A stretch of DNA of 34,848 nucleotides, taken from positions 1 to 34,848 of the forward strand of contig JAENWV010000005.1 in the NCBI GenBank assembly GCA_016650015.1, written 5' to 3'. Both the position numbers and the translations under genes were made by a program. The notes under the pieces were generated by a model. It worked only from the letters and a program-made list of their open reading frames with translations. It ran no database searches and was not told where the DNA came from. This DNA is from Thermoleophilia bacterium. GTDB taxonomy: Bacteria; Actinomycetota; Thermoleophilia; BMS3ABIN01. The stretch's first letter is position 1; every line of letters starts with the position of its first letter. Shown here piece by piece: positions 1,813 to 29,689 of the stretch.

Positions 1813-3660
1813 ATGAAGAACGACCTGCATCTGCCGCCAAACGCGCTGACAGTTCTGTCGCGGCGCTACCTGATGAAAGATCGGCAGGGCAGAGTCGTGG
1901 AAACACCGGCGGAACTTTTCCGGCGGGTGGCCCGGCAGGTGGCCGCTGCCGATGCGGCTTACGGGGACGACCCGGCTTTTTCCGCGGAACAGTTCTATCA
2001 GGCAATGGCGTCGCTCGAGTTCCTGCCGAACTCCCCCACCCTGATGAACGCCGGCACGGAACTGGGGCTGCTCTCAGCCTGCTTTGTCCTGCCGGTGCCC
2101 GATTCCATCACCGGGATTTTTGACTCGGTCAAGTCCATGGCCATCATCCACCAGGCGGGCGGCGGCACCGGGTTCTCCTTCTCCCATCTGCGGCCAAAAG
2201 GCGACCTCGTGGGAACAACGCATGGTGTCGCTTCCGGTCCGGTGAGCTTCATGGGCGCCTTCGACAGCGCCACCGAGGTGGTCAAGCAGGGCGGGCGACG
2301 GCGCGGCGCCAACATGGGGGTGCTGCGCGTTGACCATCCGGACATCCTGGAGTTCATCGGGTCCAAGCAGCAGGAGGACTTTCTACGGAACTTCAACATT
2401 TCCGTGGCGGTGACTGACGAGTTCATGGAAGCGGTGAGAACGGATAGTGAGTACGATCTGGTAAACCCGCGAACCGGCGCGGCGGCCGGGCGGCTCAAGG
2501 CGCTCCCCGTTATGGAGGCGATCGCCGCGGCGGCCTGGGCCGGCGGCGACCCGGGCATGATCTTCCTCGACCGGATCAACGAGTCAAATCCCACGCCGCG
2601 GTTGGGGTCGATGGAAACCACTAATCCCTGCGGCGAGCAGCCGCTGCTGCCTTACGAGTCGTGTAACCTGGGCTCGATAGATCTGTCGAAATTCGTCACT
2701 GGCGGTGAATCGGTCAGCGGTGAGGCAAGCGATGGCCGTGCCGCGGGAGATGGCCGTGCCGCGGGAGATGGCCGTGCCGCGGGAGATGGCCGTGCCGCGG
2801 GAGATGGCCGTGCCGCGGGAGATGGCTATTCCGCGGGCGGCGAGCTCGACTGGGCGCGGCTCGGCGAGCTGGTCGATATCGCGGTACATTTTCTCGACAA
2901 CGTCATCGACGCCAACCACTTCCCGCTGGACGAGATCGGGAAGATGACCGACGGCAACCGGAAGATCGGCCTTGGCGTGATGGGCTTCGCCGAGGCGCTG
3001 GTGAAGCTGGGAATCCGCTACGACTCGGAAGCGGCGCTGGCCATGGCGGAGGAGATCATGAAGTTCATCGAGGAGCGGGCGGTGGCGAAATCGGTAGAGA
3101 TCGCCGGCCGGCGCGGGTCCTTCCCCAATTTTGAGGGCAGCCTCTGGCAACAGCGCGGCTATGAAGCCATGCGGAACGCCACCGTGACGACCATCGCGCC
3201 AACCGGGACCATAAGTGTGATCGCCGGCACCAGTAGCGGCATCGAGCCACTGTTCGCCATCTCTTTCGTGCGGGACGTGATGGATGGCACGCGCCTTTTT
3301 GAGACCAATGCCGAGTTCGAACGCCTGGCGCGCGAACGCGGATTCCATTCAGAAGAATTGATGGCGGAGATCGCCCGCAGTGGCAGCGTGGCCGGAAACG
3401 AGCGAGTGCCAGCCGACTTGCGCGAGCTTTTCCGAACCGCCCTGGATATCGAACCCGAGTGGCACGTGCGCCTGCAGGCCGCCTTCCAGAAGCATGTGGA
3501 CAACGCGGTTTCCAAGACGGTCAACCTGCCACGGGACTCCGGAATTGATGATGTAAAGCGCGTCTTTCTGCTAGCCTGGGAGCTGGGCTGCAAGGGCATC
3601 ACTGTTTTCCGTTACGGCAGCCGCCGGCAGCAGGTGCTCTACCTCAACCCCTCCAAATAG
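1813..3660 (+). CDS. nrdJ: Adenosylcobalamin-dependent (class II) ribonucleotide reductase
   Basis: Class II RNR motifs: NSPTLMNAG, LSACFVLPV, NPCGEQPLLPYESCNLGSIDLS, TTIAPTGTISVIAGTSSGIEP, GCKGITVFRYGSR. Confidence 0.93.
   Translation: MKNDLHLPPNALTVLSRRYLMKDRQGRVVETPAELFRRVARQVAAADAAYGDDPAFSAEQFYQAMASLEFLPNSPTLMNAGTELGLLSACFVLPVPDSITGIFDSVKSMAIIHQAGGGTGFSFSHLRPKGDLVGTTHGVASGPVSFMGAFDSATEVVKQGGRRRGANMGVLRVDHPDILEFIGSKQQEDFLRNFNISVAVTDEFMEAVRTDSEYDLVNPRTGAAAGRLKALPVMEAIAAAAWAGGDPGMIFLDRINESNPTPRLGSMETTNPCGEQPLLPYESCNLGSIDLSKFVTGGESVSGEASDGRAAGDGRAAGDGRAAGDGRAAGDGRAAGDGYSAGGELDWARLGELVDIAVHFLDNVIDANHFPLDEIGKMTDGNRKIGLGVMGFAEALVKLGIRYDSEAALAMAEEIMKFIEERAVAKSVEIAGRRGSFPNFEGSLWQQRGYEAMRNATVTTIAPTGTISVIAGTSSGIEPLFAISFVRDVMDGTRLFETNAEFERLARERGFHSEELMAEIARSGSVAGNERVPADLRELFRTALDIEPEWHVRLQAAFQKHVDNAVSKTVNLPRDSGIDDVKRVFLLAWELGCKGITVFRYGSRRQQVLYLNPSK
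2731..2838 (+). repeat. 18-bp in-frame tandem repeat (5 perfect copies plus 1 degenerate) inside nrdJ
   Basis: gatggccgtgccgcggga x5 at 2731-2820, then gatggctattccgcgggc; encodes (DGRAAG)n. Confidence 0.97.
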
Positions 3661-6772: not shown

Positions 6773-7207
6773 CTACTCGGGCATCGGGGTGTCCGTGGGC
6801 TCACCGCGTTCTGAATACTTGGCGTCGATCCTCTCCCGAATAGCCAGCACCGACAATCCTTCCCCCTGCCACTGGCCGATATCCATCGCCTCGTCAAGAC
6901 AGGTTGTGCACCCGGCGGCGTGCTCGTCAAAGTCGCCGGTCTGGCGATTGTAGAAACAGTCCTTGAGGTTCTGGTATTTCTCAGGATCCTGTTTACAGCC
7001 ACAGTAACAGGGCACACGTTCCAGAATAGACTGGTTGGCGGCGGCAATTCGGTAGCCGTTCAGGGACTCTTCGGAACGGTAGACGAACTCGGGAAAGGCC
7101 GGGTCGTTGCCGGCGGTCGAGTCACCGCAACCAGCAATGAAGAAGACGATCAGCAGCATCGCCAGAACCGCTCCCATGCCACCTGCTCTTCTGGTCCAGG
7201 CACTCAT
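6773..7207 (-). CDS. PCYCGC-motif lipoprotein
   Basis: Lipobox-like VFFIAGCGDS; VPCYCGCKQDPEKYQNLKDCF...GCTTCLDEA. Confidence 0.85.
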   Translation of the reverse strand: MSAWTRRAGGMGAVLAMLLIVFFIAGCGDSTAGNDPAFPEFVYRSEESLNGYRIAAANQSILERVPCYCGCKQDPEKYQNLKDCFYNRQTGDFDEHAAGCTTCLDEAMDIGQWQGEGLSVLAIRERIDAKYSERGEPTDTPMPE

Positions 7208-7211
7208 CGGG

Positions 7212-8597
7212 CTAGCACGCTCCGCTCATCGGCAGCAGAAAGAGGAATCCGAAGCCGCTGAAAGCAGCCAGCACTACGGCGCTGCGGCTGAGAGCTCCGG
7301 CTCTCATATCTTTCCGGGCAATCCCCAGGGAGAAGTAAAGGCCCATCCCCAGCAACGCCAGTTGCAGAAACTTCAGTGGGATACTGACGAAGTAAACGTT
7401 GGTCGGCGGCATATGGCCGGACCAGTCGATGAGCCGTGATTCCAGCAGCACCGTCTGCAGTGACGGCCAGGCGCCCGACCACAAGTGCTGCAGCGACAGT
7501 GACAGGAAAACTCCCAGGGTCAACGGCAAAAAACTGAATGCCATTGAGTCAAATCTGGAAGATAAGGCTTTGCCGGCGGACGAGTATTTGACACCTGTGT
7601 TATCTCCAGCACCGGCGACGCCTGTAACCTGCACGCGCCCGCCCAGTAATCGCGCCACGCAAAGCTGCAACAGGAGGATCGTGCCCACCAGAACCGACAC
7701 GCCCAGGACGACGGTCAACCGGTAGTTGTAACCCAGGTAGGGAAGTGCGAATTGCTGATAGCGGGCGAATAGCTGGGTCATACGCACCGAATCGGCGGCC
7801 ATCAGACCCAGAAGGAGTAACGACAGCACGCCCTCGGTGCGGCCGAACTCCTGGAGACCGGGCAGTCGCGGCGACACCGGTGTCACTGTTGTGGTGATGC
7901 CGCGAGCGCCAGGATCGTGCGTGCAGACGCCACACATCTGGCACTGGCTCGGCTGCCTCAGGCTCGCGGGCGACTGCCCTACCGGACAGACCGCCATGGC
8001 GCCCTGCATCCGTGTGCTGCCATGAGGCCTCAGCCAGGAGAAAAAGGAATAGACCCGGGTGATCAGCCCCACGGGACAAAGATAGCGGCAAAATGTCCGA
8101 CCGCGAAAAGCCAGCGACAGCCCGAAAGCCAGCAAGGTCATGCCGATGAGAATGATCCCGGTGGCGCCCGCGTTTCCTTCGAGCCCGAGCGCCAGAAAGG
8201 CCAGGCCAAAAGCAAACACCGAGGCTACCCCCAACCAGGGGCCAAGACGGCGAAAAACACCCGGTGGAGCCGGACGCTCCTTGATGATCTTGCCAACCAG
8301 ATCAGCGACGCCGCCGAATGGGCAGACACCGCACCAGATCCTGCCGCCGAAGAGCAGCAGAAACCCCAGTCCCGGCCACCAGAGACGCCAGACAACCTCG
8401 GTAGCCAGGTTGCCTTCGCCACGCTGGCCGGGCGCGAAGGCAAAATAAATCAGGGCCGCAAGGACGGCGTAGAACAGCCAGTGGAATAGCCCCGGATAAA
8501 AACGCCAGCGCAGCAGGGGATCTATGCCCGGCGGCGGCAACTTGAGGCTTGCCGCACCCGCCCGGCCGGCAGCCGCTTCATTTGTCTGTTCAGTCAT
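7212..8597 (-). CDS. Multi-TM 4Fe-4S binding protein (NapH/NosR C-terminal/polyferredoxin-like)
   Basis: WCGVCPFGGVADL, FCRYLCPVGLITRVYSFFSWLRP, CQMCGVCTHDPGARG plus several TM helices. Confidence 0.85.
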   Translation of the reverse strand: MTEQTNEAAAGRAGAASLKLPPPGIDPLLRWRFYPGLFHWLFYAVLAALIYFAFAPGQRGEGNLATEVVWRLWWPGLGFLLLFGGRIWCGVCPFGGVADLVGKIIKERPAPPGVFRRLGPWLGVASVFAFGLAFLALGLEGNAGATGIILIGMTLLAFGLSLAFRGRTFCRYLCPVGLITRVYSFFSWLRPHGSTRMQGAMAVCPVGQSPASLRQPSQCQMCGVCTHDPGARGITTTVTPVSPRLPGLQEFGRTEGVLSLLLLGLMAADSVRMTQLFARYQQFALPYLGYNYRLTVVLGVSVLVGTILLLQLCVARLLGGRVQVTGVAGAGDNTGVKYSSAGKALSSRFDSMAFSFLPLTLGVFLSLSLQHLWSGAWPSLQTVLLESRLIDWSGHMPPTNVYFVSIPLKFLQLALLGMGLYFSLGIARKDMRAGALSRSAVVLAAFSGFGFLFLLPMSGAC

Positions 8598-8600
8598 GAA

Positions 8601-9158
8601 TTAAATATAGTTCGCCCTCACCGACACCTTGCTGACGGCTGGAGAGGGATCGTTGGATTTGATCGTCACCTCAAAGAGATGCTGGCCGCCCATGCCCTTG
8701 TGCATCAGCATGGAAACGGTAACAGTTGTGCTTTCACCCGGTTCGATGGTCGTGGAACCCACGACCGCCTGAGCGTCTCAGCATCCTTCCAGTCTCTTGA
8801 CGTCGAGCTTGCCCAGACTAAGAGGACCGCTACCGGTGTTTCTAATGGTAAACGAGTGTTCGACTTTCTGATCCACCGGAACGCTGCCAAAGTCGTAGCT
8901 GGTCTCGGCAATCTGCATTCTGCCACCCGAGTCGGCCGGCAGGATTGTCGCTGCCTCCGTTTTCTGGTCGGCTGACCCCGTTGCCGTATCGGATTTTTGA
9001 TCGCCGCCGCAGCCAGCGATTATGGTCAACGTCAACAAGACCCCCGCTAATGCCGCGGTCATGGCTATAAATCGCTTCCCAAACCCCGGCCTTCCTGCCG
9101 TTCCAATAAATTTTCCCGCACTTCTTCTATACGGACCAGACCTGCTGTCATCCGCCAT
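8601..9158 (-). CDS. DUF1573-like lipoprotein, predicted selenoprotein (TGA 8778-8780 read as Sec)
   Basis: ORF track stops at 8778 with ...KLDVKRLEGC*. In-frame continuation is DAQAVVGSTTIEPGESTTVTVSMLMHKGMGGQHLFEVTIKSNDPSPAVSKVSVRANYI, ending at TAA 8601-8603. Lipobox IIAGCGG; SD aaggag before ATG. Confidence 0.75.
8748..8766 (-). promoter_or_regulatory. Candidate bacterial SECIS hairpin
   Basis: Minus strand GGTCGTGG-GTT-CCACGACC, perfect 8-bp stem starting 11 nt after the TGA, G at first loop position. Confidence 0.65.
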
Positions 9159-11701: not shown

Positions 11702-12457
11702 CTAAAACAGGGTCGCCACCAGGCTCAGCAGTGCCGCCATCCTCCCCAGCTCCACCGCTGCTCCCATCAAGTCTCCACCAGCGCCGCCAAACCAGTGTCT
11801 GCCCGCCGCCGCCAGAATCAATCCCGTGAAAACCGCGGCGGCGCCCGCCGTGATTATACCGGCCAACGGCAAAGCCAGGGCCAGCGCCGCCAGACCGGAC
11901 GCCGACAGCACGATTCCCAGAATGCTTCGCCAGCCCTTCAGGTTCGCGAGGAAGACGCTGCCGCTGCCTTCGTGGGAGGGCGCACTGACAGCGGTGACCA
12001 TGAGCAGGCTCAGGCGCGCTGAAATTTCCACGGCCATCAGGCTCCAGACGATGCGAACCCCCTGACCGGATGAGATGAGCAGCTGCAAGAGCGCGGCCCA
12101 GGAGATGAGGTAGGTCAGAAATACGGCGCCGATGGCGCCGATGCCCATGGTCCTGTCCTTGAGAACCTCGATGCGGCGAGCGGCGTCACCGTGAACCATG
12201 ACGGCGTCACCAATATCGGCAAGCCCATCAGAGTGATGAAATCCGGTAAGCAGGAGCGCCATGGCCAGAATGGCGGCGGCAGCGACGGGTTGGCCGAAAA
12301 GCCGCTCGCAACCCCAGCCGGCCAGGCCTTCGATGCCACCGAGCACCGCCGCGACCAGGGGCAGCAGATAGCCGGCACGTGCGGTGTCTTTAATCGTGCC
12401 CGCCCGCGAAAGCGGCAGAATGGTGAAAAACCCGAAGACGTGGCGCGCGCTGTTCAA
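11702..12457 (-). CDS. cobS: Adenosylcobinamide-GDP ribazoletransferase
   Basis: FFTILPLSR..., FHHSDGLADIGDAVMVHG, C-terminal GGAGGDLMGAAVELGRMAALL. Confidence 0.92.
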   Translation of the reverse strand: MNSARHVFGFFTILPLSRAGTIKDTARAGYLLPLVAAVLGGIEGLAGWGCERLFGQPVAAAAILAMALLLTGFHHSDGLADIGDAVMVHGDAARRIEVLKDRTMGIGAIGAVFLTYLISWAALLQLLISSGQGVRIVWSLMAVEISARLSLLMVTAVSAPSHEGSGSVFLANLKGWRSILGIVLSASGLAALALALPLAGIITAGAAAVFTGLILAAAGRHWFGGAGGDLMGAAVELGRMAALLSLVATLF

Positions 12458-13311
12458 GCTCCAGGCACCGCTCTGTCAGCAGCTACCTCGATGCAGCCGG
12501 CAGAATCTGTGATTCCGGCTGAAGCATCTCTGGATCCTTCACTGGCAAGCGATGCGTTGAGCCTGCTCACCAAAACGTCCAGGTCATGGATGGCGTCCGG
12601 TTCTCCGGGCCTCCGGACCAGAATGACAGCGGCGCCCTCAAGCTCGGCGGCCTTCAGTTTTTCCTCCAGACCGCCCTCACGGCCGGAATCCTTGGTGACC
12701 AGGGTCGACGCCCCGCATTGCCGCAGGCAGGCGCGGTTAAAGTCGACGCTGAAAGGCGGCCAGACGGCGATTATGTTTTGAGGTTTTATCCCCAGCCGCA
12801 GGCAATCTTCAAAGGATTCGGACAATGGCAGTATGCGTGCGGCAAAGTCCAGGCCGGCCTGGACGAATGGCTCGAGATTCCGCGTGCCGAGGGTCAACAG
12901 GGAACGGGCACCGCTTTCCCGAAGCCGGCTGGCCGCTTCATCGAAAGAGTCGACGGTATCCGGTGGCGAACCGGCGCCGATGTTTGCGGTTTGCTTCCAG
13001 GGCGGCCGCGAGCTGCGAAAGTAGGGCAGGCCGGCAATGTCAGCGGCAAGCCTTGCCTGCTCGCTGGCCTCCCGGGCAAATGGATGAGAACAGTCGACGA
13101 TGGCGGCGCAGTCCAGGCTGGCGGCGCTGGCCGCCATACCGCCGGAGTCCTTCCTGCCGGTATCGGTTTTAAGTCCGGCGGCGGCCGCGACTGAGGCGCC
13201 CAGCGGTGTGGCCACGCTGACGATCACGCGATAACCTTGTTCCTGCAGACGCCTGGCGGCCTGGTTGGCCTCGGTAGTGCCACCTATCAGGTATATGGTC
13301 TGGTTGATCAT
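12454..13311 (-). CDS. cobK: Precorrin-6A / cobalt-precorrin-6A reductase
   Basis: IYLIGGTTEANQAARRL, DCSHPFAREASEQA, TLGTRNLEPF, LVTKDSGREGGLEEKL; ATGA overlap with the cobS start. Confidence 0.92.
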   Translation of the reverse strand: MINQTIYLIGGTTEANQAARRLQEQGYRVIVSVATPLGASVAAAAGLKTDTGRKDSGGMAASAASLDCAAIVDCSHPFAREASEQARLAADIAGLPYFRSSRPPWKQTANIGAGSPPDTVDSFDEAASRLRESGARSLLTLGTRNLEPFVQAGLDFAARILPLSESFEDCLRLGIKPQNIIAVWPPFSVDFNRACLRQCGASTLVTKDSGREGGLEEKLKAAELEGAAVILVRRPGEPDAIHDLDVLVSRLNASLASEGSRDASAGITDSAGCIEVAADRAVPGA

Positions 13312-15216
13312 TGGTCCGAGGTTTCGGCTTTGATCCTTTTTCCCTCATAACCACGCGCGGTGACCATCCTGCCGTTGATGATCGCCGTGCGGGAGTTGCC
13401 GATGATGATAATCGTCCGCATGTCGATCTGCCGGGCCGGCAGTTCATCCAACCGGATGACGCCGCTGGTCTCGTTGGCGCCTCCCGCTTCGCGCACCCAG
13501 CCGACCGGTGTATTCGCCGGACGCTGCGGCAATCAGGCCGCTGACTTCTTCATACAGCGCCCGCCGTTTTTTACTGGTGGGGTTGTAGAGGCAGATGACC
13601 AGGTCAGAGGCCGCGGCCAGCCGCGCCCGCCGCAGGACTTCTTCCCGCGGCGTCAGCAGGTCGCTCAGACTGAGGGTGATGTAGTCGTTCATCAGCGGCG
13701 CGCCGAGCCTGGCGGCGGCGATCTGGGCTGCGGTCACCCCCGGTACGACGGTCACCGGCGCCTCGCCGGCGAGCTCCAGCAACGGTCCAGCCATGCCGTA
13801 GACTCCCGGGTCGCCGCTGGAAACCAGGGCGACCGTCCTCCCCTCCGCCGCCAGCCGGAGAGCCTCACGGCAGCGATCGATCTCGGCGCCCATGGAGCCG
13901 GTTATATATTCCTTGTCAGGGAAGAGCGGCCTGACCTGCTCGATGTAGGTGCGATAGCCCATGATGATCTCCGCTTCGCCAAGCGCGGTGGCGGCGGCGG
14001 CTGTCAAAAGCGGTGCGGTCCCCGCGCCGGTGCCGATGACCAGGACGGGCGCGGGTGCCTGATTTTGTATCGATGCCGTGGGAACAGGTTGAACCTGCCT
14101 GAAATCGTCAGACTCGACCGCCAGTGCCACAGTCACCCTGCCGATTGTTTCCTTCCCCGAAACCAGCATGGCGTTCTCACCGGCGGCCAGGAGCGCCGCC
14201 GGTTCACAGACGGCGGGGGTTCCCACTGTCTCGGCGACAAAGCTGTTACCGGGCCGGTCCAGTGCTGCAAGTTCAGCCGCCGTGAAAAAGACGATATCCG
14301 CATCAAGGGCGGCGGCGGCTTCGATCAGTCCGCTTTCCTCCTGCTTGATATCGATTGAGGCGACCCGGGCGATGGCGCGCTGGTCTATGCCGTGTTTTTC
14401 ACAGACAGTCTCGATGGCCTTTTTGATTTCCGCCGCCGGCGTACCCCGGCGACAGCCGATGCCCACCACGACGACTCGTGGGATCAGGCAGGCAGTCGGG
14501 ATGGCGCCACCATCGTTCATCTTCTCGTGTGTAATTAAAAGTCGTCCGGCGTAGCCGCTACTATCGCTGCCAGGCGGCAGCCAGCCGTAACCATCAATCC
14601 GCGGATCCTCACGGCTCTCAATACAGACGGGCTTGCCGTCAACCAGCAGCGCAGTAACTCGCCGAAGGGCGACCGGGTCGCTGACCACAAGACCCAGCTG
14701 ACGGGCGGCCTCGTCGGGAGCGGTCAGGCCCTGGACATCGCTGGAGGTCGTAATAACCGCATCGCCATCCAGGAAATCAGCGATCTCACCGGCGAACCGG
14801 TTGGCGCCGGCGGCATGGCCGCCGAGCAGGGGCACCACGTAGCGTCCCTCCTCATCGACAACGATGATGGCCGGATCGCTCTGCTTGGAGTCCAGGTGCG
14901 GCGCCAGCACGCGGAAGGCGATGCCCGCCGCCATGACACAGACGAGGGTTTCACCGGCGCGGAATCGCTCAGGCAAGGCTTCGGTGATGCTGTCGAAGGG
15001 ATCGCAACGCGGACAGCCCATGCTGTGACTTCGGGGCAGGTGGGCGGTGCCGCCAAAACGGTCGCGCAGCTTGAGCGCCAGCAAGGCCCCGCCCGCAGTC
15101 AATGAGAAATAGCTGATTTCGCGATTATCTTCCATCCTGCTGATATTCAGCTCCTGGATTTCGTGCTCACTTCCGGTAACCGTGGGAAAATCCGTCCTTA
15201 TAAAGCAGGGACTCAT
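13308..15216 (-). CDS. cbiGH: CbiG-CbiH/CobJ fusion (cobalt-precorrin-5A hydrolase / precorrin-3B C17-methyltransferase) with an apparent frameshift near 13530
   Basis: Main ORF 13444-15216 (likely start ATG 15135): CbiG part VGIGCRRGTPAAEIKKAI, CobJ part VLVIGTGAG..., GDPGVYGMAGPLLEL, LYNPTSKKR. Homology continues in the +1 frame at 13308-13532 (RPANTPVGWVREAGG...RTIIIIGNSRTAIINGRMVTARGY). Confidence 0.85.
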
Positions 15217-15919
15217 CCCCTGCCTGGGCGAGCGCTTCCCCCACCAGTATGATGGCGGTGCGGTCGATTCCCGCCGCCTCGATGTCGCTGGCCAGTTTAG
15301 CCACGGTTGTCCTCATAATCCGCTGGTTCTGCCGGCTGGCGTTCTGCACCACGGCGACCGGCGTCTCCGGTTTATACCCCTCAAGTAGTTGTTGCTGGAC
15401 CTCGGCTGCGAGCCCGGCGCTCAGAAATATGGCCATGGTTGCGCCGTGAGCGGCCAGCCGGGCGATGCTCTCACTCTCTGGCACCGGCGTCCGGCCGGCG
15501 GCGCGGGTGATGATGACCGTCTGGGAGACTCCCGGCACGGTCAGTTCGCTGGCGAGTGCGGCGGCTGCCGCGTTCAGGGAGGAAACACCGGGGACCACCT
15601 CGAAATCAATGCCCTCCAGCCGCAGCCAGGCGATCTGCTCCTTGATCGCTCCGTAGAATGAGGGATCGCCGCTATGCAGCCGCACCACGCGTTTGCCGGC
15701 ACGCGCCCGGGTGACCATCACCTTGACGATATCGTCAAGGCAGAGTGGCGCGCTGTCCACCAGCTCGGCCCGGGGGCAGAAACCCAGCAGCTCCGGGCTG
15801 ACCAGCGAGCCGGCGTGGATGACCGTTTCCGCCTGTTCCAGCAAACGCTTGCCCCGGATTGTCATCAGCTCCGGATCGCCGGGTCCGGCACCGAGAAAAT
15901 ATATTTTGCTGTCAGTCAT
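15167..15919 (-). CDS. cobM: Precorrin-4 / cobalt-precorrin-4 C11-methyltransferase
   Basis: ORF 15167-15988; likely start MTDSKIYFLGAGPGDPELMTIRG; AETVIHAGSLVSPELL, RLHSGDPSFYGAI, VVPGVSSLNAAAA. Confidence 0.93.
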   Translation of the reverse strand: MTDSKIYFLGAGPGDPELMTIRGKRLLEQAETVIHAGSLVSPELLGFCPRAELVDSAPLCLDDIVKVMVTRARAGKRVVRLHSGDPSFYGAIKEQIAWLRLEGIDFEVVPGVSSLNAAAAALASELTVPGVSQTVIITRAAGRTPVPESESIARLAAHGATMAIFLSAGLAAEVQQQLLEGYKPETPVAVVQNASRQNQRIMRTTVAKLASDIEAAGIDRTAIILVGEALAQAGDESLLYKDGFSHGYRK

Positions 15920-15956
15920 CTGTTCATCTCCTGCGAGCTTTCGCTTTAGCGGTTTT

Positions 15957-16697
15957 TCATTCGGGCGGCTGGATCCAGAGAATGGCAAAGTACGGCAGGG
16001 CTGCCGCCGACTCCCGGTCCAGCTTCTCCAGAACCCGCTCGCCGGTGCCGCCCAGCTCGATTACACCGCGGGCGCGTGCCCAGGCGCCGTTGGCGTCCAG
16101 CATTTCCAGGGACTCCTCCGACAGAGAGCGCGGTTTGATGATAACCACCGAAGCCCTCATCGCCAGAGCCTGTTCCAGGGCCGCGTGGGCCTGCCCGGTG
16201 ACCACCACCGTGGGCGTGTCTCCGGCTGCCAGAGGCAAGCCGAGAGCCGCAGCCATGGCGCTGGCCGCCGTGACGCCGCTGACCACTTCTACCCGGCCGG
16301 GAAAACGCTCCGCCAGGTAGCCGAAAGTACTGTAGAAAAGCGGGTCGCCCAGGGACAGATAGGCTACGTCCATGCCGCCGGCGGTGGCGGCGATAACGGT
16401 TTCCGCAGCGGCGGCGTGGGCCTGTTCGAGCCGCTCCCGGTCACGGGTCATCGGCATGAGCAGCGGCAGGCGGATGGTCGCTTCCGGCAGATGGTCGGCC
16501 ACCGTCTCGAAAGCGCGGCTGCCCGCGCCTTCCCGGTTTACCGGATAAGCCACGGCACCCACGCGCTTTATCACCTCGAGGGCCTTGAGCGTCAACAGGC
16601 CGGGATCCCCCGGTCCGACGCCCACTCCGTATAGAGTTCCCGGTTCCCGGCTCATGGCGCCCGGCTCCTCGCTGATGTCTTCCTGTTCATGGTTCAT
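15957..16697 (-). CDS. cobI: Precorrin-2 / cobalt-factor II C20-methyltransferase
   Basis: GTLYGVGVGPGDPGLLTLKALEVI, VAYLSLGDPLFYSTFGYL, VVSGVTAASAMAAALGLPLA; ATG 16697 overlaps the upstream stop (ATGA). Confidence 0.92.
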   Translation of the reverse strand: MNHEQEDISEEPGAMSREPGTLYGVGVGPGDPGLLTLKALEVIKRVGAVAYPVNREGAGSRAFETVADHLPEATIRLPLLMPMTRDRERLEQAHAAAAETVIAATAGGMDVAYLSLGDPLFYSTFGYLAERFPGRVEVVSGVTAASAMAAALGLPLAAGDTPTVVVTGQAHAALEQALAMRASVVIIKPRSLSEESLEMLDANGAWARARGVIELGGTGERVLEKLDRESAAALPYFAILWIQPPE

Positions 16698-18022
16698 CGT
16701 TCCGTGGTTACAGCCGCAGGCTCCTCGTCTGCCTGCGGTTTGTCTCCGGTAAAGATTATCACCGGATTGTGCTCCAGCCACTGCGTCGCCTCACCACGGG
16801 CGACCGATACCCTGGTGACGCTCCGACCTTCAAGGCCGGAATGTGCGAACAGGTTGTGCGCCGCTTTTTTGGTCTGCTCCAGCAGCGCCGTGACCAGTAT
16901 CCTGCCGCCGGGAGCGAGAGCCTCCAGGGCTCCCTGGAAAATCTTTTCCAGCCGGCCGTCGTTGCCGCCGACAATCACCAGGTCGGGCCGCGGCAATCCC
17001 TCGAAACAGTCCGGCGCCTCGCCGCTGACAGTTTCGATAACGGCTCCAAAGCGCCGGGCGTTTCGCGACGCCAGGTCACAGGCTTCGGAGTTCTTGTCAA
17101 TTGAGTAGACGCGGGCGACAGGTTCGATCAGGGAGCACTCGATTCCATATGAGCCGGTGCCGGCGCCTGAGTCCCAGATAACCCGTCGTCCAAGTGGCTG
17201 GGCCTTGGCGAGCAAGACGGCGCGTACTTCACTTTTGGACAGAGGGATCCCCTCGCCGCGCAACCACAACTCGTCGGGAATGCCCGGCGCTGAAGCGGAG
17301 CGTCCGGTTTCCATTCGGTCGGTATCCCCGGAGGCGTTCCGGTCTTCTTCCGGAAGAATCAGAAGCAGAGAGTTGCCCGGGAAGCCAAGAAGTGCGGCGT
17401 CCCCCAGGCGGCCCTGCCAGATCTGCTCTTTTGGCAGGCCGAGGTCGGAACCGACGGCGGCGCGGCGATTGGCCAGGGCCAGAGGCATGCTTTTGGCGAT
17501 CACCTGGGGAGAGCTGGACGCGTCACAGAAATAGAGGGTCGGCTGCGACACGTCCGGCAGGGGCGCCAGTTCCGAAGCGCGGCCATGCAGGCTCACCAGA
17601 CGCCAGTCCTGCCAGGACAAGTGCAGCCTGGCCGCCAAGATCTGCAGCGAAGAGATGCCCGGAGCAATATGAATCCGGTCAGCGAAATTCTCCTTGAGAA
17701 AAGGCAGGATGCCGAAACAGCCCGGGTCGCCACTGGCCAGCACGCAGACATCAGAATGCTCGAGTCCCGCGGCAACGAAACGCCGAGTCTCCTCCAGGTC
17801 GGCCGTGATGGCATGCAGTTCAGCGCCCTCAGGGGCCAGCTCCAGCAGACGCCGTCCGCCGGCGAAACTCCGGCAGCGGGCGATCAGGGATCGGGCCTCC
17901 CCGGTAAGCATCGCCCCGGTCCCCGGACCGACGCCGACTATATACAACATGTTCCGGTTTTCATCCATGTGCGTGTTTTGATGCATGTGTTTGTTTTCAT
18001 CCATGTGTTTGTTTTCATCCAT
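16694..18022 (-). CDS. cobL: CbiE-CbiT fusion (precorrin-6Y C5,15-methyltransferase, decarboxylating)
   Basis: MLYIVGVGPGTGAMLTGEA, LASGDPGCFGI (CbiE); GEGIPLSKSEVRAVLLAKAQPLGRRVIWDSGAGTGSYGIE (CbiT); N-terminus repeated (MDENKH)n, true start may be as late as 17950. Confidence 0.92.
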   Translation of the reverse strand: MDENKHMDENKHMHQNTHMDENRNMLYIVGVGPGTGAMLTGEARSLIARCRSFAGGRRLLELAPEGAELHAITADLEETRRFVAAGLEHSDVCVLASGDPGCFGILPFLKENFADRIHIAPGISSLQILAARLHLSWQDWRLVSLHGRASELAPLPDVSQPTLYFCDASSSPQVIAKSMPLALANRRAAVGSDLGLPKEQIWQGRLGDAALLGFPGNSLLLILPEEDRNASGDTDRMETGRSASAPGIPDELWLRGEGIPLSKSEVRAVLLAKAQPLGRRVIWDSGAGTGSYGIECSLIEPVARVYSIDKNSEACDLASRNARRFGAVIETVSGEAPDCFEGLPRPDLVIVGGNDGRLEKIFQGALEALAPGGRILVTALLEQTKKAAHNLFAHSGLEGRSVTRVSVARGEATQWLEHNPVIIFTGDKPQADEEPAAVTTER

Positions 18023-18029
18023 GTGCGCT
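17958..18029 (-). repeat. Four 18-bp tandem repeats over the cbiET start region
   Basis: Plus-strand units ttttcatccatgtgcgtg / ttttgatgcatgtgtttg / ttttcatccatgtgtttg / ttttcatccatgtgcgct; each encodes one in-frame ATG on the minus strand. Confidence 0.93.
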
Positions 18030-18064
18030 TATTTCTCGCTTCATATCCGGCTTATGCAAAAAAA

Positions 18065-19234
18065 CTATGCACGACCGACGATTTTCCCCCGTCCGTCCGT
18101 CAGGATCACCTCTGCCGTGATGCCGTATTCATCATTGACCCGCGCTGCAACGCGCCTGGCCGTCTCTTCCAGAACCAGGGCGCCCTCCGCGCCCGCTTCC
18201 ACGAGCCTGGTCAGCGCCGCCTCGGTGGTCGGCAGTAGCAGGAGTTCCCGCGTCCGGCTACCGCTCCATCCCGCCGCCTCGGCGCATTCAACCAGTACAT
18301 CGAGGGGCATCGGCGAACGCCGCGAATGGGTGTTGAAATCACCTCGCGCCAGCTTGGCTACCTTGGCGGCGTGGCCCAGGATCACTACCTGCCGCATGCC
18401 ACGCTCCCGCGCCGCCGCCAGCATCATGCCGGTAAAATTTCCCGTCTGCACCACTGCCAGCGGCTCGAAGCCCGCCGCCAGCGCCGCCCTCTCACCCTTG
18501 GCGCCGGGCACCAGTACCGGCCGTTTCACACCGGCTGCCCTGGCCACGTCCAGCTGCGGCAACAACGATTCCTGGTAGGCCGCCGAAGACCAGGGCTCAA
18601 CCCGCCCAGTCGTTCCCAGGATGCTGAGACCACCGATAATGCCAAGCTTCGGATTGAATGTCCTGGACGCCAGCTCCTCACCTTCCGGGATGGAAATCGT
18701 GACCTCGGCGCCCAGCGGCAACACGCGCTTCGCCTCCTTGATAATGAACTTCAGGGGTACCGGGTTGATGGCCGCTTCTCCCGGCTTCACCGGCAGCCCC
18801 TCCAGCGTCACCCGGCCCACGCCTTCGGCGCCATCCACATAAAACTGTCCATCAAGCCGCCCGACGACGCAGACAAAAATCTGAATCCCGTTAGTGATGT
18901 CCGGGTCGTCGCCCGCGTCCTTGACGACGGACACCACACCCTCATCATGCATGGTCATCGGGAAGATCACGTTCTCGCCATTGGGCAGAGTCACATCGAC
19001 CAGCCCCCTGGTATCACAGACGATGCTTGTCTCTTCCTCGGCCGCCGGGTTGCAGGACGGGTAGCCGATGGCGACGGTCAGCGCCGCCGCCCTGGTCGCC
19101 GCCTGGGCGCAGGCACCGGTGGTATAACCGCGGCGCGGCACACGCTTCCCTGAAGCTCCTTGATGGTCGTCTGTGCGCGGGTCCCGGCCGATCTTCCCCG
19201 AATCCTGATTCCCGATCTGCGGCTCCCGGCTCAT
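18065..19234 (-). CDS. cbiD: Cobalt-precorrin-5B C1-methyltransferase
   Basis: RRGYTTGACAQAATRAA, DDPDITNGIQI, GGLSILGTTGRVEPWSSAAY, LGHAAKVAKLARGDFNTHSR. Confidence 0.95.
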   Translation of the reverse strand: MSREPQIGNQDSGKIGRDPRTDDHQGASGKRVPRRGYTTGACAQAATRAAALTVAIGYPSCNPAAEEETSIVCDTRGLVDVTLPNGENVIFPMTMHDEGVVSVVKDAGDDPDITNGIQIFVCVVGRLDGQFYVDGAEGVGRVTLEGLPVKPGEAAINPVPLKFIIKEAKRVLPLGAEVTISIPEGEELASRTFNPKLGIIGGLSILGTTGRVEPWSSAAYQESLLPQLDVARAAGVKRPVLVPGAKGERAALAAGFEPLAVVQTGNFTGMMLAAARERGMRQVVILGHAAKVAKLARGDFNTHSRRSPMPLDVLVECAEAAGWSGSRTRELLLLPTTEAALTRLVEAGAEGALVLEETARRVAARVNDEYGITAEVILTDGRGKIVGRA

Positions 19235-20094
19235 GTCAGGCCTTCCTCCACCTCGAGCAGCTCAAGCCCGACAGCTCCGAGCTCGCCACGCTCCAGCAAT
19301 TCTTCGAGCTTGTGGCGAGCCATGCCTACGGTCAGTGGCAGCTCCTCGACATCGGGGATCATCTCAAAAAGGTAGGAGATCCGTGGCAGCCGCAAATGGC
19401 AACGCTCGATCAGCTCCGGGTCGCTGAAGACTTCGCGCAGGCCGCCGGTGACCGCCAGCCGGCCGCGCCGCAACAGGCAGACCTGCCGGGCATAAAGCGG
19501 CACCAGATCGACGTCGTGCGTCGCCATGACAATGGTCATGCCCTGCCGGTTGAGTTCCAGCAGCAACCGCATCAACCGGCGCTCGCCCATCGGGTCGAGG
19601 CTGGCGGTGGGCTCATCCAGAACCAGAACCCGCGGCTCCATGGCCAGCACCCCGGCGATGGACAGGCGCTTCTTCTGGCCGTAGCTCAGGTGATGGATCG
19701 GCCGGTCGAGCAAGTCGGTAATCGCCACCTGCGCCGCCACCCGCTGTAGCCGGCGCTCCACTTGCTCATCCGGCAGACCCAGGTTCCGCGGCCCGTAACA
19801 GATGTCGTCGCGCACGGTCGGCGCGAATATCTGGTCGTTTGGATCCTGGAAGACAAAGCCGACAGCCCGATTAACTTCGTCAAAGTTCTTGCGCTCGACC
19901 TCCAGGCCAGCCACCGTGACCGCGCCCGACTGGGCCAGCAACAACCCGTTGATATGCTTGAGCAGCGTCGACTTGCCCGAGCCGTTGGCGCCCATCACCG
20001 CCAGGAAGGAACCCTCGGGCACCTCCAGGGAGACGCCGTCAAGCGCCCGGGTGCCGCCGGGATAGGTAAAATGAAGATCGTCGATGCGGATCAC
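19231..20094 (-). CDS. cbiO: Cobalt ECF/ABC transporter ATP-binding protein
   Basis: Walker A GANGSGKSTLLKHINGLL, Q-loop FQDPNDQIF, LSYGQKKRLSIAGVLAMEPRVLVLDEPTASLDP. Confidence 0.95.
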   Translation of the reverse strand: MIRIDDLHFTYPGGTRALDGVSLEVPEGSFLAVMGANGSGKSTLLKHINGLLLAQSGAVTVAGLEVERKNFDEVNRAVGFVFQDPNDQIFAPTVRDDICYGPRNLGLPDEQVERRLQRVAAQVAITDLLDRPIHHLSYGQKKRLSIAGVLAMEPRVLVLDEPTASLDPMGERRLMRLLLELNRQGMTIVMATHDVDLVPLYARQVCLLRRGRLAVTGGLREVFSDPELIERCHLRLPRISYLFEMIPDVEELPLTVGMARHKLEELLERGELGAVGLELLEVEEGLT

Positions 20095-20858
20095 GCCGGG
20101 CCTCCCAGGGCCAGCAGGCTCAAGGCGCCGAGAAACACCGCGACGGCAAGCCCGGCGAGAATATCCAGCCGGCCGGGACGGGACAGCGCGCCGTTGACGA
20201 CCGGCCCCGAACCGCGGCAGCGCATCGCTTCAGAGGACCGTAGTCCACGTTCGTAGACCCGCAGAAAAAGGGAACCGCCCAGCAGGCGGCTGCTCGCCAG
20301 GCCGCAGCGCGCCGAGGACCAGCCGAGCCGCGCCTGCTGGGCCTCCCGCATCCGGGAAAACTCCGCGTGTATGTCAAAAAGATAGCGGTAGGTCAGCTGC
20401 ATGATCTCGATAAAGGTGGCGGGAGCCCTGAACCACCTCAAAGCCAGGCAGAGACGGTTGAGCGGCGTGGTCACCCCCAGGACGACGACAATAAGGCCGC
20501 CGGCGATGACGCGCAAGGAAAGGTAGAGCCCATGAAAAAACCCCTCGAGATGCAGGTCGAACGGACCCAGCGCGGCGAAGACCTCTCCCCCTTTAAAAAC
20601 GGTCTGCGATATTATGGCGAAAAGGGCGAAGGTCGCGGGGAAAGCAATCATCAGCAGCTGCCGGCGGTAGGGAATGCGCCCGGCGATCATCAACAGGGCC
20701 ATGGCGAGGGCGATCACCCCGGACACCAGGTATGAGGCTGCGAGCAGGTTGACCATCAGCAGTCCTGTGACACCGGCGATTTTCACCCTGGGATCGATGC
20801 GGGAGAGAAAGCTGTCACCCCAGGCGTAGCCGTCATCGTTGCGGGAAGCTCCGGTCAT
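20091..20858 (-). CDS. cbiQ: Cobalt ECF transporter T component
   Basis: DPRVKIAGVTGLLMVNL, AREAQQARLG-type and GSLFLRVYERGLRSSEAMRCRG motifs, multi-TM; position next to cbiO. Confidence 0.9.
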   Translation of the reverse strand: MTGASRNDDGYAWGDSFLSRIDPRVKIAGVTGLLMVNLLAASYLVSGVIALAMALLMIAGRIPYRRQLLMIAFPATFALFAIISQTVFKGGEVFAALGPFDLHLEGFFHGLYLSLRVIAGGLIVVVLGVTTPLNRLCLALRWFRAPATFIEIMQLTYRYLFDIHAEFSRMREAQQARLGWSSARCGLASSRLLGGSLFLRVYERGLRSSEAMRCRGSGPVVNGALSRPGRLDILAGLAVAVFLGALSLLALGGPA

Positions 20859-21133
20859 TTCTGGGCCATTTCCTTTTCATCGGCCCCCGGGAAAAGCGTC
20901 CGCCAATAATAACCCGCGGCGAAGCCGGCAATGGCGCCGCCGGAGAGAAAGAAGAAAAGCAGCAAGTCGCCATCTATCTTCCAGGGAAGGACCTGGGATT
21001 CGGCAACGCCTGCCTTTTCCGCGAGAGGCGCGGCGGCGCCTTCAGTGACATCCCCTTGCCATTGCGATTCGGTGAAGAGGACAGCAGTCAGGAATATCGC
21101 CACCACGGCAATTACTATCAGCCAGCGCTTCAT
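20855..21133 (-). CDS. Small two-TM cobalt transport accessory protein (CbiN/PDGLE-like)
   Basis: 92 aa, N- and C-terminal TM, located between cbiM and cbiQ with overlapping start/stop. Confidence 0.65.
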   Translation of the reverse strand: MKRWLIVIAVVAIFLTAVLFTESQWQGDVTEGAAAPLAEKAGVAESQVLPWKIDGDLLLFFFLSGGAIAGFAAGYYWRTLFPGADEKEMAQK

Positions 21134-21789
21134 GGGCGCACCACCACACCCTCGAGAATCTCCGCCCGCTGATTGGCGATAAATACCACCACTCCCGCGG
21201 TGAACAGCGCTTCAGCGATGGCCAGAGGTACCTGGGTCGGCAGGAATGAAGCAAATGCCGCCCCCCAGACATACGACACCGGCTCATCTCCGTGCAAAGC
21301 CAGGGCGAGCTGTAGCGAAGTCAGGCCATAGGTGACCAGATCGCCGATGAAACCGGCCATCCCAGCGGATATCCCGAGGCCAAGCCCGGCTCGGCGGGAA
21401 ATCCTGAACGCGGCGAAGCCGGCAAAGGAGCCGCCGACGGCCATGGAAATGATGTTGGCGCCCCAGCTGGTGATGCCGCCGTGGGCAAAGAAAAGCGCCT
21501 GCAGGAGCAGAGCGACCGAGCCCAGCACCGTCGCGGTCAGCGGCCCTAGAAGTATGGCCGCCATGGGGGTGCCACAGGGATGGGATACCGTCCCCAGTCC
21601 GGGGACGGGGATGGGCATCAGCGATATCACGAAGACGAAGGCGCCCAGCAGGCCGATCAGCGGTCTGGCTGATGGTTGTATGGCCAGACGTCGCTTGAGC
21701 CCGACCAGCCCCGCCCCCACAAATGCCGCCGCCGGCGCATACCAGGCCGCCGCCTGCTGCGCGGGTATCAGTCCTTCCGGTATATGCAT
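21130..21789 (-). CDS. cbiM: Cobalt ECF transporter S component
   Basis: MHIPEGLIPAQQAAAWY, MPIPVPGLGTVSHPCGTPMAAILLGP, LFFAHGGITSWGANIISMAVGG. Confidence 0.95.
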   Translation of the reverse strand: MHIPEGLIPAQQAAAWYAPAAAFVGAGLVGLKRRLAIQPSARPLIGLLGAFVFVISLMPIPVPGLGTVSHPCGTPMAAILLGPLTATVLGSVALLLQALFFAHGGITSWGANIISMAVGGSFAGFAAFRISRRAGLGLGISAGMAGFIGDLVTYGLTSLQLALALHGDEPVSYVWGAAFASFLPTQVPLAIAEALFTAGVVVFIANQRAEILEGVVVRP

Positions 21790-21881
21790 TTAAATTTTCC
21801 TCTTCCTTCCATCGCCTTTTCGATTTACAAGGAAGGTCCTTCGGGACCGGCTTCCGCCTACGGAGCGGTATTGTTTTCCTG

Positions 21882-23141
21882 TCATAATTGCTGTTTGTTG
21901 TCCGCGCTTAAGCGGATCAGCGCGTTGACTATGGCCGCGGCCACGGTGCTGCCGCCGCGGTTGCCAGGCAGGGTTATACAGGGAATGACTGAAGCCGCCA
22001 GTGCTTCTTTGCTGGCGGCGGCGCCGACAAAACCAACCGGCACCCCGACGACCAGCGCCGGGCGCAGCCCCTGCTCCTCAACCAGCCGCAACAGCTCGAA
22101 GAGCGCCGTGGGCGAGTTACCGATGGCGACGATGGCGCCATCGAGGACAGGAGCCGCCAGGCGAATAGCCGCCGCGCCGCGGGTAATGCCCTCCTCTGCC
22201 GCCAGCTCGGCCGACGCCGTGTCCGCGACCAGACAGGTCACTTCGAGTCCACGGATTTGCGTGGTCGGCTGGATGCCGGCGACCACCATGTTGACATCGC
22301 AATAGATGCTGGCGCCGGCGGCAATAGCCTCAACGCCGGCCCCGATGGCAGCAGTGGAAAAAAACATCGCCCTGGCCAGCGAGGGATCACCGGTGGTATG
22401 AACCACACGGCGGATCACCTGGTACTCGGGTTCCCCGGCGTTAGCGGGCTCCAGCAAGCTGTCGATGATCTCAAAACTTTCCACTTCGATCGGGTGCCGG
22501 GCTATCGGCGTGCGGGCAAAGCCGGTGATGGATTTTCCGCTGCCGTCGGTGGTGTCGTCCCGATTGCCGCAGCTGGTATCAACGCCACTTCCGCCGGTGG
22601 AATCATCCCCGCCGCCGCAGCTTGTTTCTTCCCCATCGCCGCAGGTTGCATCGCCCGAACCGCAGGCTGCGCTGCAAAGGGCTGCGAATAAATCCGCGAC
22701 ATCGTCATTGGCTGACCGATCCGCGCTATCTCCGTCCCCGAGCTGATCCATTTTCGCCAACGTGCGGCGGGCCAGAACTTCTACCAGCAGGTCGTCGGTC
22801 CCCAGTGAATCGGCCAGGATGAACTCGGTCCCGGGCAGTTCCAACCGCAACCGGTCCAGTTCTTCGGGGATATCCTGCTTCAGGTGGTTGCCATCGAAAA
22901 GGAAGTAGGGCGCCACCACAACGCGGCGGGCTCCGGCAGTCGCCAGCTCCCGGCAGCATTCGCCCAGCGTCGGCTTGTTGAACTGCAGGGAAGCCACCAG
23001 CACAGGCAACTCCAGCCGTTCCGCCAGGTGGTCGGCAACCCAATTTAGAAGAACGAGCGCTTCGGGAGCCCGGCTACCATGGCCGATGACGACCACGCCG
23101 GTTTCACCACCGGCTTTTCCGGAAATATCAGAGGCTTGCAC
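21882..23141 (-). CDS. CbiX-CbiC fusion (sirohydrochlorin cobaltochelatase / precorrin-8X methylmutase)
   Basis: N-term VVIGHGSRAPEALVLLNWVADHL, VVVAPYFLFDGNHLKQDIPEEL (CbiX); C-term HPIEVESFEIIDSLL, RRVVHTTGDPSLARAMFFS, DVNMVVAGI, NSPTALFELL, VGVPVGFVGAAASKEAL (CbiC). Confidence 0.93.
   Translation of the reverse strand: MQASDISGKAGGETGVVVIGHGSRAPEALVLLNWVADHLAERLELPVLVASLQFNKPTLGECCRELATAGARRVVVAPYFLFDGNHLKQDIPEELDRLRLELPGTEFILADSLGTDDLLVEVLARRTLAKMDQLGDGDSADRSANDDVADLFAALCSAACGSGDATCGDGEETSCGGGDDSTGGSGVDTSCGNRDDTTDGSGKSITGFARTPIARHPIEVESFEIIDSLLEPANAGEPEYQVIRRVVHTTGDPSLARAMFFSTAAIGAGVEAIAAGASIYCDVNMVVAGIQPTTQIRGLEVTCLVADTASAELAAEEGITRGAAAIRLAAPVLDGAIVAIGNSPTALFELLRLVEEQGLRPALVVGVPVGFVGAAASKEALAASVIPCITLPGNRGGSTVAAAIVNALIRLSADNKQQL
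22540..22685 (-). repeat. Degenerate repeats encoding a Cys/Gly/Asp-rich linker in CbiX-CbiC
   Basis: Encodes CSAACGSGDATCGDGEETSCGGGDDSTGGSGVDTSCGNRDDTTDGSG; recurrent ccgcag(c/g)ytg motif at about 21-48 bp spacing on the plus strand. Confidence 0.75.
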
Positions 23142-24597
23142 GAACGCTCGCTCCCTTCACGCCGGCGCAGGCCCCGATCAGCCGTTCGGCCGCCCGGGGG
23201 TTACCGGCGAAATTTATATGAACATATGACGCCAGCAGGTTGCCGGCACTGAATCCGTCTGCCCTGCCACCGGGCTCCCGGCTGGAAAAACAGTCATAGG
23301 CCAGGTTTTCCTCCTGCCAGTCGATGGTGGACCAATGGAACTCGTGGCCGCGAACCCGCTCCCCGCTCGCGAACATCAGGTTGTCAGTCCTGGCTTCGGC
23401 CTCCACATATCCCAGCGCCTGGCGGCTGCCGGTCATGCGTGCCGTAAGCGGCAAGGCGCCAACCATCGTCCGCCGCCGGCCATCGACCTCCAGCTCGCGG
23501 CAGAGGTAGACCAGTCCGCCACACTCGGCATACACCGGCAAGCCATCCCCGACTGCGGCGGCTACGGAAACCCGCATTGACCCGTTGGCCTCGAGCCCGG
23601 CCGCAAACATTTCCGGGTAACCGCCTCCGATATAGAGGCCGTCGCAAGCGGGCAGCTCCGGGTCATGCAGGGGGCTGAAGTAAATCAGTTCCGCGCCAGC
23701 GGCCTCCAGCGCTTCGAGACTGTCAAGATAATAAAAAGAAAAGGCTTCGTCCCGCGCCACCGCCAGGCGGATGCGGGATTGCCCGGGCAGAACCGGCGCC
23801 GCTGGCGCAACAGCAGCCGTCGGCCGTGGTTCAACAACAGCAGTCGCTCCGCGGGACAGCCCCAGCATGGCCTCGAGGTCCAGATTGCCTTCTACATGAT
23901 CGATTATCCGTTCGATCACTTCGGCGGCGGGCTCCCCTTTTTGCCTGACCGCGGCCGCTAACGGTTCATCCGCCTGAACCAGTCCAAGGTGGCGGGAATC
24001 AAGCGAGATATCCCGGCGCCGCGGCAACACGCCCAGCAGTGGCACCCCGGCCTCACGGGCGGCGTCTTTGAGAATGCGCGTGTGTGCGGGACTGCCAACA
24101 TTATTGAGGATTGCCCCCGCCAGATTCAGCCGCCTGTCGAAGGCGGCAAAACCGGTCAACACCGGCGCCAGGCTGCGTGCCTGGCGGGCACAGTCGACCA
24201 CCAGCACCACTGCCGCGCCGGTGAGTCGCGCGATTTCAGCGGTGCTGCACTGATCGCCGGCGCCGGCGCGCCCGTCAAAGAGGCCCATGGCCCCCTCGAT
24301 TACCGCCACCTCAGCCTCGGCAGAACCGCGCGCGTAGATTTCCTGAACCACCTGAGCGGATGTCAGCCAGGTGTCGAGGTTCCGCGACGGAACCCCGGTG
24401 GCCGCCAGATGGTAACCGGGATCAATATAATCGGGACCCGTCTTGAACGGGGCCACCCTGATTCCCTGGCGCCTGAACGCGCCCATCAGGCCGATTGCGA
24501 CCGTCGTCTTGCCGACGCCGCTGGCAACCCCGCCTATCGCCAGAGGGATCACTGGAGCGCCTCCCGAAGCCGGCTCGCGCCGGCCGGAGACGCCCAA
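23128..24597 (-). CDS. cbiA: Cobyrinate a,c-diamide synthase
   Basis: IGGVASGVGKTTVAIGLMGAFRRQGIRVAPFKTGPDYIDPGYH, VIEGAMGLFDGRAG, YAECGGLVYLCREL, GHEFHWS. Confidence 0.95.
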   Translation of the reverse strand: MGVSGRREPASGGAPVIPLAIGGVASGVGKTTVAIGLMGAFRRQGIRVAPFKTGPDYIDPGYHLAATGVPSRNLDTWLTSAQVVQEIYARGSAEAEVAVIEGAMGLFDGRAGAGDQCSTAEIARLTGAAVVLVVDCARQARSLAPVLTGFAAFDRRLNLAGAILNNVGSPAHTRILKDAAREAGVPLLGVLPRRRDISLDSRHLGLVQADEPLAAAVRQKGEPAAEVIERIIDHVEGNLDLEAMLGLSRGATAVVEPRPTAAVAPAAPVLPGQSRIRLAVARDEAFSFYYLDSLEALEAAGAELIYFSPLHDPELPACDGLYIGGGYPEMFAAGLEANGSMRVSVAAAVGDGLPVYAECGGLVYLCRELEVDGRRRTMVGALPLTARMTGSRQALGYVEAEARTDNLMFASGERVRGHEFHWSTIDWQEENLAYDCFSSREPGGRADGFSAGNLLASYVHINFAGNPRAAERLIGACAGVKGASVRASL

Positions 24598-24618
24598 AGC
24601 CGGCTCGCGCCAGCCGGA
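24567..24618. repeat. Imperfect 22-bp direct repeat (period 30) at the cbiA start / intergenic junction
   Basis: aagccggctcgcgccggccgga (24567-24588) and aagccggctcgcgccagccgga (24597-24618). Confidence 0.85.
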
Positions 24619-24646
24619 ACAAACATTCCTCCGCCTGCGGACAACA

Positions 24647-25756: not shown

Positions 25757-26370
25757 TATTCGGTCCCCTCGCGGGCCCTGACGTCGTTGTGATAGGGGTG
25801 TTTGATTTCACGCATTTCCGTGACATAGTCGCAGACCCCGATCAGCTCCGGCAGCGCGTAGCGGCCAGTCAGCACCAGCTCGACGCTGCGCGCCTTGTGC
25901 CTCACGAGGTCGATGAGGTCCGCCAGCTTTATCTGCCCGTTTTTGACGACATGGGTGATCTCATCGAGCACCACGAGATCGTGCTCGCCGGCGGTAACCA
26001 GCTCCCGGGCGACCTCCCAGCCGCGCTCGACAGTGTAGCCGCTCTCTTCCACCGCCCGCTGCTCCTGCTTCGTGGCGAAACGCGAGGCCCCGAACTGGCG
26101 GATGGTCAAAGGGCCGCCCATTTTTTCGGCGAAGACCATCTCGCCGGTCATGATTGTCGTCCGCTTGAGAAACTGGATCACCGCCACCTTGCGATCCCGT
26201 CCCAGGGCCCGGAGCGCCAGCCCCAGCGCCGCCGTGGTCTTGCCTTTGCCGTTCCCGGTGTAGAGATGGACCAACCCCTGTCGGCGCGCCTGTTCCCAGA
26301 GCACCCGCGCCAGGCGGTCGTGGTCCTCAAAATTCCTGCCCTTCCCTTTATCCGGGCCTTTTGCGCTCAC
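25753..26370 (-). CDS. cobO: Cob(I)yrinic acid a,c-diamide adenosyltransferase (CobO/BtuR family)
   Basis: GLVHLYTGNGKGKTTAALGLALRALGRDRKVAVIQFLK, DLVVLDEITHVVKNGQI, VLTGRYALPELI. Confidence 0.95.
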   Translation of the reverse strand: MSAKGPDKGKGRNFEDHDRLARVLWEQARRQGLVHLYTGNGKGKTTAALGLALRALGRDRKVAVIQFLKRTTIMTGEMVFAEKMGGPLTIRQFGASRFATKQEQRAVEESGYTVERGWEVARELVTAGEHDLVVLDEITHVVKNGQIKLADLIDLVRHKARSVELVLTGRYALPELIGVCDYVTEMREIKHPYHNDVRAREGTEY

Positions 26371-29453: not shown

Positions 29454-29509
29454 GCCAAAAGGCAAAAATTCACCCAAGCCACTCCCTCCGCGAAGAGTGT
29501 GCTGGCTAG

Positions 29510-29689
29510 AGCCCGTGGGCAGGTCTCCTGGCTTCTGGATTTGCGCTCCGCTGGCGCCTTCCCGGGCTTTTGCCCAGTGGCTCACCCCTATGCGGGGCTA
29601 TTGCACGCGAAGCTACCAGTTACAGTGGCGGGACCGCGCCGGCGTTTCACCGGCTTCCCTTGGACGCCCCGGAGGGCGACCCACAGGCT
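29510..29689 (-). ncRNA. Cobalamin (AdoCbl) riboswitch aptamer
   Basis: Minus strand AAGGGAAGCCGGTGAAACGCCGGCGCGGTCCCGCCACTGTAACTGG...GAGCCACTGGG...GGGAAGGCGCC...CCAGAAGCCAGGAGACCTGCC; P1 AGCCTGTGGG / CCCACGGGCT pairs fully (one G-U). Confidence 0.95.

Follow-up and report, generated by a model that had tools for sequence, protein, structure and literature searches.

Our analysis strongly supports the prediction that the gene at positions 8601 to 9158 (minus strand) of the window, a 34,848-nt stretch of DNA from a Thermoleophilia bacterium, encodes a single 185-aa selenoprotein rather than a truncated DUF1573 protein. The proposed selenocysteine (Sec) is residue 127, specified by an in-frame TGA (8778-8780, minus strand), and the adjoining codon (TGC, 8781-8783, minus strand) encodes its partner Cys126, with Gly-Cys-Sec invariant in two alignments (A2 and A4). 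The original prediction had described this locus as an unannotated selenoprotein, and the selenoprotein reading is upheld by conservation of the TGA in 30 of 30 relatives, by a covarying downstream hairpin, and by purifying selection past the TGA. We consider it highly probable that one joint explanation best accounts for the locus, namely, that a 185-aa selenoprotein of a new subfamily is decoded by means of SelB, tRNA-Sec and the hairpin, and that the product is a lipoprotein with a Cys-Sec pair that may be redox-active.

The conventional ORF at this locus spans 8778-9158 (minus strand) and ends in KRLEGC followed by TGA; every coordinate proposed for it was reproduced, as were the 58 further open codons that lead to a TAA at 8601-8603. 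This TAA is followed by TTC and then by the ATG of the next gene at 8597, consistent with the tight spacing that had been claimed. Both the adjacent Cys-Sec pair and the lipobox (IAGC, with Cys50 at 9009-9011, minus strand) are likewise present. The lipobox (TIIAGC) places Gly-Cys after a hydrophobic stretch and is invariant in 12 of 12 genus and family sequences, suggesting that the product would be a lipoprotein positioned outside the cytoplasmic membrane.

To define relatives, we used as hallmark the GMGGxH motif, which lies downstream of the TGA. TGA directly after Gly-Cys was kept in all 30 distinct loci bearing this motif, from ~28 genomes. Among 60 related genomes there were 12 strong matches, one of them a paralogue in the genome itself, and each carries exactly one in-frame TGA, in the same column. 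When only the post-TGA part of the gene was used as query against ~85,000 species genomes, 25 loci were obtained, all with TGA directly after Gly-Cys; since the scan pattern (GMGG[QPM]H[LV]F) is situated downstream of the TGA, this codon was not selected for by the search. The 30 loci include the paralogue, genus and family mates, and MAGs labelled Thermoleophilia or Actinomycetes, together with MAGs labelled Chloroflexota, Dehalococcoidia, Anaerolineae, Desulfobacterales, NC10/Methylomirabilota, and Rokubacteria. A scan of viral contigs for the motif plus hairpin gave no match. The paralogue (L035, G000:C155:16736-17119, minus strand) is a second Cys-Sec DUF1573 gene, and it too is followed by a gene for an Fe-S membrane protein.

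Cys at the UGA column, which had been expected of some homologues, was found in two remote homologues from the window's own phylum, which read TGC-TGT (L123) and TGC-TGC (L124), respectively. The occurrence of Cys versus Sec at one column across homologues constitutes a classical Cys/Sec pair. The original prediction had also noted that TGC or TGT upon resequencing would speak against Sec; the same TGA codon is present in independent assemblies, and a sequencing error is thereby ruled out.

If the TGA were a true stop, the product would be a 126-aa truncated protein and the downstream frame a decayed remnant, as conventional gene calling implies and as would suit a window in which TGA is the commonest stop. 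However, the region after the TGA is conserved across phyla, with 33-45% identity over the domain to distant members, and purifying selection acts on the codons before as well as after the TGA. More specifically, post-TGA dN lies well below dS in comparisons with genus mates (0.07 versus 1.16 for L018; 0.12 versus 1.45 for L021), and the differences fall mainly at third codon positions. In addition, the Cys homologues read straight through this site, and a stop here would leave half an Ig domain. With hairpin covariation added to the Cys homologues, the cross-phylum conservation and the dN/dS values, the true-stop reading is refuted, and we regard it as very improbable.

The claim that the conventional call amounts to half a domain was borne out by both profile and structure analyses. 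The joined frame matched Pfam DUF1573 (PF07610; 45.8 bits, above the cut-off of 26.1) and PF22544 (49.3 bits; cut-off, 25.5), and these matches cross the TGA, covering residues 81-182 with Sec at 127; the corresponding DUF1573/HYDIN-like Ig domain occupies 8616-8915 (minus strand; residues 82-181). An AlphaFold model built with 23 aligned sequences yielded one Ig-like domain across the TGA, an eight-stranded sandwich (pLDDT, 93.0), of which a stop at the TGA would leave 4 strands; a model computed from the single sequence scored poorly (pLDDT, 67.7), and the aligned run was used instead. In the model, the single domain is predicted to present Cys126-Sec127 in an inter-strand loop (between strands 44-55 and 60-64, model numbering). 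The best match among solved structures was 2qsv from Porphyromonas gingivalis (E, 1.2e-06; TM, 0.76 by query), with HYDIN and other PapD-like domains ranking next.

Apart from the open frame itself, nothing favors the idea that this lineage uses TGA for a standard amino acid or misreads it as Trp. TGA is the stop of 15 of the 25 long ORFs in the window, many of which are Pfam-confirmed, indicating that the code is standard without reassignment. Moreover, the TGA considered here always follows Gly-Cys and is accompanied by the hairpin, and remote homologues have Cys, not Trp, in its place. Reassignment is refuted on these grounds and appears extremely improbable.

The prediction that the genome would hold the Sec machinery was confirmed for selA (586.9 bits), selD (375.6 bits) and the start of selB, whereas the MAG lacks tRNA-Sec and the greater part of selB. 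Only the first 80 codons of selB are present, after selA, running off the contig. tRNA-Sec was not found in this assembly (85% complete, 256 contigs), and the Rfam matches examined for it proved to be Ser, Cys, Leu and other tRNAs. tRNA-Sec with anticodon TCA is present in five genus mates, and in one of these (G001) a single contig carries selA with tRNA-Sec downstream of it; the gap in the MAG is thus best explained by the contig ending inside selB. selA was also detected in 16 of the 18 distant genomes that carry the gene, and the lack of a selA match in the other 2 possibly reflects MAG incompleteness. The selD gene (L089, G000:C237:17397-18323, plus strand) has a Sec codon of its own (HGAGUACK).

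A SECIS-like hairpin had been proposed to start 11 nt past the TGA, with the G of its loop at 19 nt, and both distances were reproduced. The hairpin (8748-8766, minus strand) consists of an 8-bp stem, 8759-8766 pairing with 8748-8755, and a loop at 8756-8758; its DNA reads GGTCGTGG, loop GTT, CCACGACC, and its RNA GGUCGUGG-GUU-CCACGACC. Counting only TGAs with open frames on both sides, we found 22 in the window, the selenoprotein TGA included, that are followed by a stem of 6 bp or more, and three of these stems reach 8 bp or more. By reason of this background, the hairpin alone is weak evidence and not decisive; what raises the case above chance is the TGA in 30 of 30 loci, the covariation of the hairpin, and the purifying selection past the TGA. 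The stem occurs at the same place, ungapped, in 29 distinct sequences, with pairing in 93.5% of cells and compensatory changes in 5 of the 8 stem pairs. Its covariation score was 0.354, versus 0.137 for shuffled data and ≤0.10 with one arm slid, and the loop is GUN in 28 of the 29 sequences (the exception, L116, has GGG). The same region also codes for conserved residues (VVGSTT), such that coding and hairpin constraints act on it together, and the substitutions by which pairing is restored speak for a role of the hairpin at the RNA level. Decoding of UGA127 as Sec by SelB and tRNA-Sec, probably aided by the GUN-loop hairpin, is strongly supported by these comparisons.

Directly downstream of the selenoprotein gene in the window lies a gene for a 461-aa membrane protein (7212-8597, minus strand) with Fer4_5 iron-sulphur motifs and a NapH/NosR-like region (Pfam/NCBIfam). 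In 8 loci, two of which are closely related loci of Chloroflexota MAGs, such an Fe-S membrane gene comes directly after the selenoprotein gene; it is nearby in a Dehalococcoidia MAG (L103), and it is not adjacent in several Chloroflexota and Methylomirabilota loci. In the window-family versions of this protein, the C-terminus PMSGAC is conserved in all, with Cys as the last residue. Farther along is a PCYCGC (OS_HP4/CYCXC-like) lipoprotein gene in Cys form (6773-7207, minus strand; PF13798, 75.2 bits; NF041379, 66.2 bits against a cut-off of 90); at 7 other loci, too, a homologue of it is encoded close to the selenoprotein gene. In some loci, cupredoxin/COX2 genes adjoin or lie near the selenoprotein gene, or an HMA-domain gene is directly downstream (L102, L103), and nearby genes in some Chloroflexota loci are read, from their sequences, as CcmE/CcmF-like. 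Two further genes near the selenoprotein gene (L103:3540-4592 and L107:6618-8030) share a Cys-rich stretch (CC...C.H..A..GLA.YL), and their products end in Gly-Cys or Gly-Gly-Cys; Pfam gave no match for the former and only FKBP_C for the latter. Elsewhere in the window we observed a large cobalamin biosynthesis cluster (11702-28865 and 29501-29699, both minus strand; CobS, CbiJ, CbiG, CbiD, CbiC/CbiX, CobD/CbiB and CbiA-type genes) with a cobalamin riboswitch (106.6 bits), as well as a B12-dependent ribonucleotide reductase (1813-3660).

The Fe-S, PCYCGC, CcmE/CcmF-like, cupredoxin/COX2 and HMA neighbors suggest extracytoplasmic electron transfer or metal handling. From neighborhood and motif we infer that the protein may provide an extracytoplasmic Cys-Sec redox or soft-metal center linked to a membrane iron-sulphur protein. 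For the redox version, we put at about even the chance that the Cys-Sec pair cycles between selenol/thiol and selenenylsulfide, exchanging electrons with the downstream Fe-S membrane protein. Alternatively, the main task of the pair might be to bind or deliver soft metals (copper or mercury), as a ligand or chaperone site, and not to transfer electrons. Families with a listed CU motif include HgcA, SaoL, SaoC and MbdU, which are associated with mercury, organometallic or metal chemistry (PMC13188914), and the cupredoxin/COX2 or HMA-domain neighbors in some loci point the same way; however, the most conserved neighbor is an Fe-S membrane protein of electron-transfer type, which also suits a redox role, and no mer genes were identified adjoining the selenoprotein gene. 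We hold this metal-site role to be possible, at somewhat less than an even chance. A broader proposal, which we advance tentatively and consider rather doubtful, is that the Cys-Sec Ig protein, the NosR/NapH-like polyferredoxin and the PCYCGC lipoprotein might together make up an extracytoplasmic module for electron transfer that spans phyla. In it, a vicinal selenenylsulfide, borne by an Ig fold rather than a thioredoxin fold, would carry electrons or metal for the assembly of respiratory copper or haem centers.

Reading these genes through the TGA would extend the catalogued prokaryotic selenoproteins by a subfamily whose genes ordinary gene callers would halve. It would comprise Ig-like surface proteins that carry neighboring Cys and Sec residues, occur nearly always in the Sec form and, in part of their range, are linked to an Fe-S membrane protein, and would place a concrete Sec site on a fold rarely considered redox-active; most characterized selenoproteins have a thioredoxin-like fold (PMC13188914). 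The lineages concerned (Actinomycetota-related, Chloroflexota, and Methylomirabilota) are known mostly from MAGs.

DUF1573 selenoproteins are already known as OS_HP2 (Zhang and Gladyshev 2007, as cited in PMC9312934 and PMC13188914). The reviews of 2022 and 2026 contain one DUF1573 entry, with the motif UGC (PMC9312934, PMC13188914), and UGC is the only motif given for DUF1573 among the 119 families catalogued in May 2026 (PMC13188914); a DUF1573 entry with CU is absent from the 2026 review's table, though other literature could mention one. That review treats different Sec positions as separate subfamilies (PMC13188914). Our gene could be merely a diverged OS_HP2 member without a real difference at the Sec site, given that NF041425 (OS_HP2) is its best NCBIfam match and that the Ig/DUF1573 fold is common to both. 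However, this match scored only 47.5-49.3 bits against a cut-off of 100, and four distant members scored 17-37 bits; no scanned member was shown above the cut-off, and across 149 genomes of the phylum only the window gene, the paralogue and one family member matched NF041425, all below it. Scoring of motif variants (CGCT, 57.1 bits; EGCC, 49.3 bits) did not pin down the matching column, since there is a difference of ~2 residues in the loop. Gly-Cys-Sec, rather than Sec-Gly-Cys, was the order in 30 of 30 loci, and the UGC arrangement was absent among the hallmark members found. Likewise, the Sec of L125, a UGC-type protein of the same phylum (PSUGCMAG), aligns with Cys126, or with Glu124 if Gly-Cys is matched, and never with Sec127. 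A diverged OS_HP2 member therefore seems unlikely. The L125 locus (G338:C82:4021-4338) is itself a UGC-type DUF1573 selenoprotein candidate, after which an in-frame stretch carries two CxxCH haem motifs.

On the basis of the Gly-Cys-Sec order, the sub-cut-off OS_HP2 score, the L125 alignment and the 2026 table, we call the proteins described here a putative new Sec-position subfamily of DUF1573 selenoproteins, with the motif (D/E)-G-C-U and a downstream GMGGxH. OS_HP2 (NF041425, PF07610) likewise has a DUF1573 Ig-like domain with a single mid-domain Sec from UGA, but there the order is Sec-Gly-Cys, whereas the window protein has the adjacent pair Gly-Cys-Sec plus GMGGxH and scores at half the family cut-off. 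Ordinary Cys-Gly-Cys DUF1573 proteins, such as L126 (SCGCAA), share the domain, without Sec at this site and with a Cys pair split by Gly rather than vicinal. OS_HP4/CYCXC (PCYCGC) is a family with known Sec members that lies nearby in several loci; the window copy has Cys only and is a neighbor. HgcA, SaoL, SaoC, MbdU and KCU-star also have an adjacent Cys-Sec, but are listed under other families and domains; the CU in common is a resemblance that does not by itself imply homology. What goes beyond the known OS_HP2 is the Sec adjoining a Cys, together with the spread across phyla.
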